Positions 28,185-30,162 of a stretch of DNA of 64,000 bases are shown here, one piece after another. Position 1 is the stretch's first letter. Each line of letters starts with the position of its first letter. Source of the DNA: Candidatus Tectimicrobiota bacterium (GTDB lineage: Bacteria > Tectomicrobia > Entotheonellia > Entotheonellales > Entotheonellaceae); assembly GCA_026005175.1 (NCBI GenBank), contig BPKO01000002.1, forward strand, positions 32,501-96,500, written 5' to 3'. The position numbers were made by a program, and so were the translations under genes. The notes under the pieces are model-generated. The model was not told the DNA's origin and did not search any database. It worked only from the letters and a program-made list of their open reading frames with translations.

Positions 28185-29027
28185 TTACCACTTCTTCCCG
28201 CCGCAGGGGTTTTTGGCGGCGCAGGGGTTGCAGGGGTTTTTGGCGGCGCAAGGATTTGTCTTGGCCGCACAGGGGTTGCAAGGATTCATCTTGGCGGCGC
28301 AGGGGTTCATCTTGGCCGCACAGGGGTTACAAGGATTCATCTTGGCGGCGCAGGGGTTGCAGGGGTTTTTGGCGGCGCAGGGATTCATCTTCGCCGCCGC
28401 CTGCGTTCCCTTCCCCGCTTTGTAGTCGGCTACAAGCTGCTGGTAGTAAGCAGCCAAAGCCGTCATCGCCAAGCCGTTGGGGTCGAGGGGCTTGGCCTTC
28501 ATCGGGTTGATCATGCAGAAGTTGATCATCTGGTCGAGGGTGACGATGTCGTCGACCATCTTCACGTAGTGCGGGAAAGGCCCGACTTTGTCGAGGTTCA
28601 GCAGGGCATAGTTGACGTGGCAGCTATTACAAGAAAGTCCGGAGTTGCCCAGTTTTGGATCGTTCCAGAGCTTCCGGCCCCACTCGACCAGCGCCGCGTG
28701 GTCTTTGATGCGCGTGTTGCGAATCGGCTTAACCGCCGGTGTCCCTGCCGCGCAGGGGTTTTTGGCCGCGCAGGGATTACAGGGGTTCATCTTGGCGGCG
28801 CAAGGATTCGTCTTGGCCGCGCATGGGTTGCAGGGATTCATCTTGGCGGCGCAAGGGTTGCAGGGGTTTTTGGCCGCGCAGGGGTTCATCTTGGCCGCAC
28901 AGGGATTTTTGGCGGCGCAGGGATTACAGGGGTTGCGCTGCGCCGCGTCACTGGACGCAGGCAGGGCAACCGCCGCAATGAGCAGCACGGCCAGCAGGAT
29001 TCCCACACGTGTGGCGAGACATCGCAT
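28185..29027 (-). CDS. Exported c-type cytochrome flanked by two Asn-Pro-Cys repeat arrays
   Basis: The 280-residue protein has a signal peptide (residues 1 to about 28, LLAVLLIAAVALPASSDA). Residues 32-94 are an array with twelve NPC tripeptides in units NPCAAK and NPCNPCAAKM. Residues 95-210 form a globular domain with one haem c site, SCNSCH (Cys133, Cys136, His137), plus INFCMINPM, where Met172 or Met176 may be the distal ligand. Residues 213-276 are a second array, again with twelve NPC tripeptides, ending GGKKW. The mature protein has 27 Cys, 24 of them in the arrays. The core resembles monohaem cytochromes of the SoxA-like type. The arrays suggest metal binding, cross-linking or attachment; none is proven. 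A GGAG precedes ATG 29027, and hemQ is divergent. Confidence 0.85.
   Translation of the reverse strand: MRCLATRVGILLAVLLIAAVALPASSDAAQRNPCNPCAAKNPCAAKMNPCAAKNPCNPCAAKMNPCNPCAAKTNPCAAKMNPCNPCAAKNPCAAGTPAVKPIRNTRIKDHAALVEWGRKLWNDPKLGNSGLSCNSCHVNYALLNLDKVGPFPHYVKMVDDIVTLDQMINFCMINPMKAKPLDPNGLAMTALAAYYQQLVADYKAGKGTQAAAKMNPCAAKNPCNPCAAKMNPCNPCAAKMNPCAAKMNPCNPCAAKTNPCAAKNPCNPCAAKNPCGGKKW
28200..28397 (-). repeat. Coding tandem repeat array encoding 12 NPC motifs (C-terminal)
   Basis: Imperfect 18- and 27-base units encode NPCAAK and NPCNPCAAK(M/T) in tandem. Nearly identical codons are used throughout, which points to recent duplication or gene conversion between units. It lies inside the cytochrome gene. 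Confidence 0.85.
28746..28937 (-). repeat. Coding tandem repeat array encoding 12 NPC motifs (N-terminal)
   Basis: This is the counterpart of the array at 28200-28397, with the same unit types and the same count of twelve NPC, placed just after the signal peptide. The two arrays are separated by the haem domain. Confidence 0.85.
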
Positions 29028-29198: not shown

Positions 29199-29232
29199 GG
29201 TGCAAACCCTTTGCCAAGAGGGAGAGCGGCCT

Positions 29233-30162
29233 ATGCGGACGTCGGAAGTTCCGGAAACCTTGGAAGGGTGGTACGTGCAGCACGATCTCTATACTGTCGA
29301 CTGGGCGCGCTGGCAGGCGGTGCCCGCGGCGGAGCGCCAGGCTCTTGCCGCTGAAGCGAGTGCCTGGCTCAGGACCCAAGAGGCGCCCGAAGCCGGCAGC
29401 AGTGCCTGCTACAGCGTGTTGGGACAGAAAGGGGACTTGCTCTTCGTCCACTTCCGCCCCAGCCTCGAAGCCCTTCAGGCCGTCAAGCTGTCCCTGTGCC
29501 ACAGCGGCTTTTACCGCTTCTTGCAGCCGACCTACGGCTACCTCTCGGTCATCGAGCTGGCTCTCTACGAAGTCACTGGCCCGATTCAGCGCAAGCTCGC
29601 CGCCGCCGGCTTGCAACCGGGAACGGCGGAGTACGAGAGCGCCTACCAGCAAGAGCTCGAGTATCAGAAAGAAGCCATGCAGGCGCGCCTTTACCCTCTC
29701 ATTCCGCCAAGCCGTTACATCTGCTTTTACCCGATGAGCAAAAAGCGCGGCGAAACGCGCAACTGGTATGCCCTGTCCATGGAAGAGCGGCGCGAGCTGA
29801 TGCGCAGCCACGGCATGATCGGCCGCAAGTACGCCGGCAAAGTAACGCAAATCATCAGCGGCTCAACGGGCCTCGACGACTGGGAGTGGGGCGTGAGCCT
29901 GTTTGCCGACGATCCGCTGGTCTTCAAGAAGCTGGTTTACGAAATGCGCTTTGACGAGGCAAGTGCCTATTACGCTTTGTTTGGCGCGTTTTACGTGGGT
30001 ATTCGCTGCCAGCCCGAGGCGCTGGCGGCGCTCCTGACGGGCCAGCCCGCGGCCCCCGAGCGGTCGCTAAAGACGCCTGCCAGCGCGGAAAAACCCGCCT
30101 GCTCCCTTACCCGAGGGATGCTTTGGAGGCGTTTATCTCCTGTCTTTCCTGCCAAGAACTAG
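29233..30162 (+). CDS. hemQ: HemQ, coproheme decarboxylase (chlorite dismutase family)
   Basis: This 309-residue protein begins with the family signature ETLEGWYVQHDLYTVDW. It contains RYICFYPMSKKR with the reactive Tyr region, and the haem-ligand region SHGMIGRKYAGKVTQIISGS followed by GLDDWEWGVSLFADDP and LVYEMRFDEASAYYALFG, all typical of HemQ rather than true chlorite dismutases. HemQ decarboxylates coproheme to protoheme in the coproporphyrin-dependent pathway. A tail of roughly 35 residues extends past the family core. ATG 29233 follows GAGGGAGAG. It is divergent to the haem-binding cytochrome gene, a fitting functional pairing. Confidence 0.9.
   Translation: MRTSEVPETLEGWYVQHDLYTVDWARWQAVPAAERQALAAEASAWLRTQEAPEAGSSACYSVLGQKGDLLFVHFRPSLEALQAVKLSLCHSGFYRFLQPTYGYLSVIELALYEVTGPIQRKLAAAGLQPGTAEYESAYQQELEYQKEAMQARLYPLIPPSRYICFYPMSKKRGETRNWYALSMEERRELMRSHGMIGRKYAGKVTQIISGSTGLDDWEWGVSLFADDPLVFKKLVYEMRFDEASAYYALFGAFYVGIRCQPEALAALLTGQPAAPERSLKTPASAEKPACSLTRGMLWRRLSPVFPAKN

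Follow-up and report, generated by a model that had tools for sequence, protein, structure and literature searches.

The window analysed here, a 64,000-nucleotide stretch of a Candidatus Tectimicrobiota genome (GenBank GCA_026005175.1, contig BPKO01000002.1), encodes a monohaem cytochrome c whose haem domain is flanked on both sides by regular arrays of Asn-Pro-Cys (NPC) motifs. We find that these arrays are old and maintained by selection, that they recur with other haem domains and on peptides that have none, and that they are linked to genes for two partner families, DUF6969 and FGE-like proteins. We tentatively propose that the arrays buffer metal in the periplasm through their thiolates, most likely copper(I), in a manner that would resemble bufferins while dispensing with the MNIO enzyme.

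Architecture of the array-cytochrome

The coding sequence (Table 1) begins with ATG and has no internal stop. Its product carries 24 NPC triplets, 12 on the N-terminal and 12 on the C-terminal side of a single CxxCH domain, the count given in the initial annotation of this DNA. Asn-Pro precedes every one of the 24 array cysteines. These are followed by AAK in 14 cases, directly by a further NPC in eight, and once each by AAG and GGK; the AAK/AAKM spacers had been recognized before, and the eight NPCNPC doublets had gone unmentioned. The protein has 28 cysteines in all: the 24 of the arrays, two of the CxxCH motif, Cys171 and one in the predicted signal peptide. A strong N-terminal hydrophobic stretch, together with the CxxCH motif, suggests that the protein is exported. 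On its two sides the gene has a HemQ gene and one resembling a peptidase, and no metal gene adjoins it; the HemQ-type neighbour probably lies outside the array system. PADLOC found no match to anti-phage defence systems, and a defence reading of the locus was rejected on this ground.

Table 1 Features of the array-cytochrome gene and its divergent neighbour, in window positions
Feature	Position	Strand	Evidence
Array-cytochrome CDS, 280 aa	28185..29027	-	Open frame, translation, NPC count; same architecture in homologues of related genomes
Probable Sec signal peptide, about residues 1-28	28944..29027	-	Hydrophobic stretch, mean 3.3 over 12 residues; A-x-A-like end
Left array, residues 32-92, 12 NPC	28752..28934	-	Sequence count; tandem repeats by TRF
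SoxA/TsdA-like monohaem cytochrome c core, residues 97-205	28413..28739	-	PF21342; AlphaFold2 model match to 1h31_A
Haem-binding motif CNSCH, residues 133-137	28617..28631	-	Sequence; C..CH invariant in homologue alignment
Cys171 (QMINFC), candidate distal haem ligand	28515..28517	-	Invariant in 20/20 homologues
Right array, residues 215-275, 12 NPC	28203..28385	-	Sequence count; TRF
HemQ-type peroxide-dependent haem synthase, divergent neighbour	29200..30162	+	NF008913, 327.6 bits (cut-off 253)

The arrays are selected at the protein level

Over the NPC codons of the window gene, pairwise pS was 0.77 and pN was 0, with eight codon spellings in use. Because the repeats show many synonymous and no non-synonymous differences, we conclude that the arrays are old and under protein-level selection, rather than recent or assembly-derived copies. 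The same architecture recurs in independently assembled genomes of the family (L013 with 32 NPC and L014 with 18) and elsewhere in the class (G004). Together, the codon test and these homologues exclude chance or assembly expansion, a concern that the initial annotation had raised, and the selection seen on the NPC codons bears out its view that genuine cysteine arrays sit beside a haem domain. The matched 12-and-12 symmetry that it stressed fails as a rule. SoxA-type relatives carry 12 to 43 NPC and P460-type relatives 8 to 43, and arrays are one-sided in several of them; the match in the window protein is incidental.

The array is the constant part of a widespread family

A single pattern scan of genome contigs with one motif returned at least 118 array-bearing stretches, mostly in Alphaproteobacteria, with others in Gammaproteobacteria, SAR324, Nitrospinota, Tectomicrobia and Acidobacteria; because the loci were found with one motif, their counts are biased towards NPCAAKNPCNPC-like arrays. 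Array-cytochromes are apparently part of a widespread family that has so far gone undescribed, and the search for arrays next to CxxCH domains that had been proposed for this DNA, together with a listing of gene neighbours, shows recurrent partner genes. Simple motif rules assigned the genes among the matches listed to array-only proteins (78, against about 67 array-cytochromes), SoxA-type (18) and P460-like (41) cytochromes, and a few others. The haem domain that accompanies an array can thus be of two or three kinds (SoxA-like, P460-like and a third type). The P460-like assignment is by resemblance: a neighbouring protein of this type that lacks an array reached 24.9 bits against PF16694 (cytochrome P460; cut-off 27), and the array-bearing proteins scanned gave no match. 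Since the haem domain is swappable and array-only peptides are frequent, the array is the constant part. Two P460-like cytochromes from DUF6969-bearing genomes carry CGAC-type cysteine arrays instead of NPC (L162:5848-7143 and L164:1615-2793). As these arrays sit on the same P460-type cytochrome, it is the cysteine density rather than the letters NPC that is conserved.

In the lineage of the window genome, the array-cytochrome was found in two of the three other genomes of its family and in one genome from another family of the class. The window genome also encodes an array-only peptide of 84 residues, as well as a membrane protein of the DUF6789 family in which NPC occurs five times. Across 70 array-only proteins, the composition was 20% Cys, 11% Lys, 0.4% acidic residues and 1% aromatic residues plus His, the cysteines were spaced by three (478 times) or six (250 times) residues, and 69 of the 70 had a hydrophobic leader.

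The haem core has a SoxA-like fold

The core matched PF21342 with 45 bits (cut-off 27, E 1.1e-11); the sole other Pfam match of the window protein, PF03150, was below cut-off, and the SoxA equivalog TIGR04484 scored 41 bits against a cut-off of 110. The core, modelled with AlphaFold2 (mean pLDDT 78, pTM 0.73), had as its best solved match the first haem domain of SoxA (1h31_A, residues 54-143; Z 9.5, rmsd 2.4, 86 aligned), followed by TsdA with Z about 8.3. Cys171 is invariant in all 20 homologues, including an array-less paralogue beside a SoxYZ-like gene, and aligns with a cysteine of the first SoxA haem domain. This placement, at the SoxA/TsdA position, makes it a candidate haem ligand. In the SoxA family the second cysteine ligates the haem and takes part in the conjugation of thiosulfate to thiols (PMC4423706). 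However, at the positions equivalent to the thiosulfate-binding residues Arg119 (Cys-4) and Ser127 (Cys+4) of TsdA, as defined in PMC4423706, all 20 homologues have Met or Ile and Pro, respectively. Thiosulfate chemistry is therefore unsupported by the residues, and we rejected identity as a SoxA-type thiosulfate enzyme.

The array-less SoxA-like monohaem protein of the window genome lies beside what reads as a SoxY-SoxZ fusion (L003:1267-1749 and 1760-2659), and the pair is upstream of an apparent cbb3 oxidase operon (L159).

Partner genes of the arrays

Among the loci listed, clustering of neighbouring genes brought out DUF6969 (49 loci), an FGE-domain protein (34), a histidine kinase family and an exported 166-residue family (19 each) and the PF04143 sulfur transporter (14). 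The 166-residue family (for example L021:6457-6945) has no Pfam match and conserved Cys-Gln-Phe and SCPLNTT motifs, and its gene always lies on the strand of the array gene. A heavy-metal sensor identity for the histidine kinase beside an array peptide was rejected, its score being well below cut-off. A Pfam tally of neighbours (n = 130) gave kinases, cytochromes c, Sel1 and pyridine-nucleotide disulfide reductases, and no excess of known metal genes. In both G001 and G002, the array-cytochrome has a Cox11-type copper-insertion protein as its neighbour; the copy in G002 was identified by reading its sequence.

We sampled 240 Alphaproteobacteria, of which 53 had DUF6969 and 26 had the pattern NPCAxxNPC. 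DUF6969 was present in 25 of the 26 pattern-positive and 28 of the 214 pattern-negative genomes (odds ratio 166, p 4e-18, shared ancestry ignored). The FGE-like subfamily occurred in 15 of the 240, 13 of them with DUF6969, again ignoring shared ancestry. Cultured Alphaproteobacteria with the array cluster include Sneathiella glossodoripedis and Pelagibius litoralis. Among DUF6969 genomes lacking the pattern, two had CGAC-type arrays, two had NPC arrays with other spacing and one had an NPC/His peptide; the remainder had no array within about 8 kb. DUF6969 was found in none of the five genomes of the window phylum in our collection (the window genome being 77% complete), and is therefore not essential in the window lineage. 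The DUF6969 model (pLDDT 90) had no confident match in the PDB (Foldseek best E 1.0; VIA-align best Z 4.1), a result that does not by itself establish a novel fold. Invariant residues of the family include His, Glu and Asp, of a kind that would suit a metal site.

Most of the FGE-domain neighbours have an N-terminal hydrophobic leader. On contig C9 of the window genome, a multihaem cytochrome gene separates an FGE-like gene from the nearby gene for the array-only peptide; in G004 the genes for the array-cytochrome, the FGE-like protein and a multihaem cytochrome adjoin one another. FGE-like proteins of the window phylum are 48-53% identical to the proteobacterial proteins compared, which suggests lateral spread of the FGE-like/array module. 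The canonical FGE cysteine pair is absent from the window-class proteins, the proteobacterial ones have a shifted CxxC, and only the acidobacterial L032 and L049 have the pair; against NCBIfam equivalogs, the FGE-like partner was far below every cut-off. In the acidobacterial case, found in two copies (L032:5010-6870 and L049:4917-6777), the gene for an NPC-bearing membrane protein overlaps the FGE gene with the canonical pair. In the window genome, a gene for EgtD (TIGR03438, above cut-off) is directly upstream of an FGE-like gene (L153:2613-3707); the two might together produce a hercynine derivative.

A metal-stress locus and the relation to bufferins

One alphaproteobacterial locus (L172:3760-14430) has an MNIO and DUF2282 bufferin pair, an ECF sigma/NrsF pair and an RND efflux pair, whose pump had CusA/CzcA as its best NCBIfam family, below that family's cut-off on the truncated sequence scanned. 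Within about 11 kb of these genes, the locus encodes an NPC/His-run peptide, DUF6969, DUF6789, thioredoxin and a DsbD-type protein. In Caulobacter, the sigma-F regulon includes DUF692/DUF2282 operons under heavy-metal stress and responds to chromate and cadmium (PMC3511200). Fusions of bufferin, cytochrome c and FGE are on record and have been read as copper-related (PMC12452194). The MNIO enzyme (PF05114) itself was found in none of the window genome (77% complete), G001, G002 and G004; it was absent from 37 of 47 genomes and present in 10. The Pfam matches of the window protein, PF21342 and the sub-cut-off PF03150, include neither DUF2282 nor another bufferin domain. With MNIO mostly absent among the 47 genomes, we rejected membership of the MNIO/bufferin system.

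What the arrays may do

We favour metal buffering, tentatively, because of the metallothionein-like composition of the arrays, the context of L172, the sigma-F regulon and the fusions of bufferin with cytochrome c and FGE. The cysteine density kept in the CGAC-type arrays, the Cox11-type neighbours in G001 and G002, the FGE-like partners and the co-occurrence with DUF6969 also speak for it. Once exported, flexible (Asn-Pro-Cys)n arrays would present dense, CxxC-spaced thiolates, with a cysteine at every third or sixth residue and lysine beside it. These thiolates would bind and buffer periplasmic metal ions, most likely Cu(I), as in bufferins and metallothioneins. The haem core, which would be of His/Cys type, could be a redox site of low potential, maintaining the proper redox state of the array thiols or of the copper they bind, or it may instead hand electrons to a partner cytochrome. 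Array-only peptides would add buffering capacity, and the exported FGE-like protein, joined in Proteobacteria by cytoplasmic DUF6969, may act on or with the arrays. Against metal buffering, an explicit metal-stress cluster was seen at one locus only, L172, which carries much of the case and may be atypical of array loci because its peptide also bears a His run; the sulfur transporters at the 14 loci noted above would also fit sulfur chemistry. Further points against it are the lack of an excess of metal genes among the 130 neighbours tallied, the histidine kinase that falls well short of the heavy-metal sensor cut-off, and the absence of a metal gene next to the array-cytochrome gene of the window. 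Of the roles suggested in the initial annotation, metal loading leads by gene context and composition, with zinc and Fe-S not told apart from copper.

The linkage of both DUF6969 and FGE-like proteins to the arrays would also suit a RiPP-like pathway, in which either or both convert array cysteines, to formylglycine, thiooxazole-like or S-linked products, and the modified array serves as a metallophore or adhesive. The array cysteines stand in CxP and CxA contexts reminiscent of FGE substrate motifs, which offers a lead. Conservation of the FGE-like protein between the window phylum and Proteobacteria points the same way, as do the invariant residues of DUF6969, a protein with no confident PDB fold match. 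Set against this are the missing or shifted canonical cysteine pair and the absence of DUF6969 from the window phylum, and we regard such modification as possible but rather improbable. We are similarly doubtful that the arrays form an MNIO-independent exported system in which DUF6969 and a divergent FGE-like oxidase mature them, with interchangeable haem domains governing how oxidized or reduced the metal or the modified thiols are. A disulfide-cross-linked extracellular or periplasmic material, with the haem domain as cargo or oxidant, finds a parallel in CdeC, which has a 6-NPC repeat and self-assembles; CdeA, CdeC and CdeM form oligomers that withstand denaturation (PMC7677010). Disulfide reductases adjoin five array loci, and array cysteine counts are even in 45 of the 70 array-only proteins, a small excess (p 0.02). 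However, the other 25 have odd counts, which permit intermolecular pairing but not complete internal pairing, so that the strictly paired all-disulfide form of this earlier suggestion is weakened; no cell-surface or sorting domain was seen, and the likeness to CdeC is a short motif from a spore former. We consider a disulfide material unlikely.

The resemblance of the core to SoxA and TsdA raises the prospect that the haem conjugates thiosulfate or other sulfur species to array thiols, which would carry them in the manner of the SoxYZ arm. Members of the SoxA family couple thiosulfate to thiols (PMC4423706), the array-less paralogue adjoins a SoxYZ-like gene in the window genome, and Sulf_transp (PF04143) recurs among the loci listed. 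Yet the residues equivalent to Arg119 and Ser127 are replaced in every homologue, the best fold match is the first SoxA haem domain and not the catalytic one, and P460-type cores bear the same arrays, all of which make sulfur carriage distinctly improbable. Least probable, and very much so in our view, is an electron-conducting or haem/NO-related tether, in which the arrays would tie the cytochrome to multihaem partners or connect it to them electrically. The evidence for this earlier suggestion is that array genes, or FGE-like ones, have a multihaem cytochrome as neighbour in the window genome and its phylum and in SAR324 and Nitrospinota. Nothing found points to conduction, no conductivity is known for such arrays, and haem-less array-only genes are as common as array-cytochromes among the matches listed.

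If the arrays do buffer copper or another soft metal, many marine and uncultured bacteria would possess a means of handling metals that current annotation leaves unnamed, and the chelator would carry its own haem redox centre. DUF6969, for which we found no paper in the literature searched, would gain a first functional setting, and repeat-tunable cysteine polymers would become available for metal capture.

Comparison with known systems

The initial annotation knew of no assigned function for such arrays, and a literature search on the array motifs (NPCAAK, PCAAKNPC) and on DUF6969 returned nothing relevant beyond CdeC. This exosporium protein of C. difficile has tandem Asn-Pro-Cys in a 6-NPC repeat (PMC7677010). 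CdeC is, however, a spore protein with no haem reported and no partners seen in common with the array proteins, and the short motif alone is shared. SoxA/TsdA cytochromes (PF21342) share the fold, the CxxCH motif and the invariant second cysteine with the window core, whereas the window protein has a single haem domain, bears arrays in addition and lacks the thiosulfate-binding Arg and Ser. The FGE superfamily (PF03781: FGE, PvdO, EgtB, SenA) supplies the domain found in the array partner, which differs in scoring below the equivalog cut-offs and in lacking the canonical cysteine pair except in the acidobacterium. Metallothioneins, to no family of which the window protein matched in Pfam or NCBIfam, are likewise rich in Cys and Lys and poor in acidic and aromatic residues, with CxxC spacing; the arrays differ in their predicted export and long regular repeats, and their metal binding is a prediction only. 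Bufferins (DUF2282 Buf1, Buf2; Buf_EGKCG/oxazolins) differ in that NPC arrays match no bufferin family and have FGE-like and DUF6969 partners rather than MNIO. Like the arrays, bufferins are small, exported, Cys-rich and partly repetitive with a variable number of repeats, fusions of Buf1 to cytochrome c and FGE-sulfatase are reported (PMC12452194), and at one locus the two systems stand side by side.
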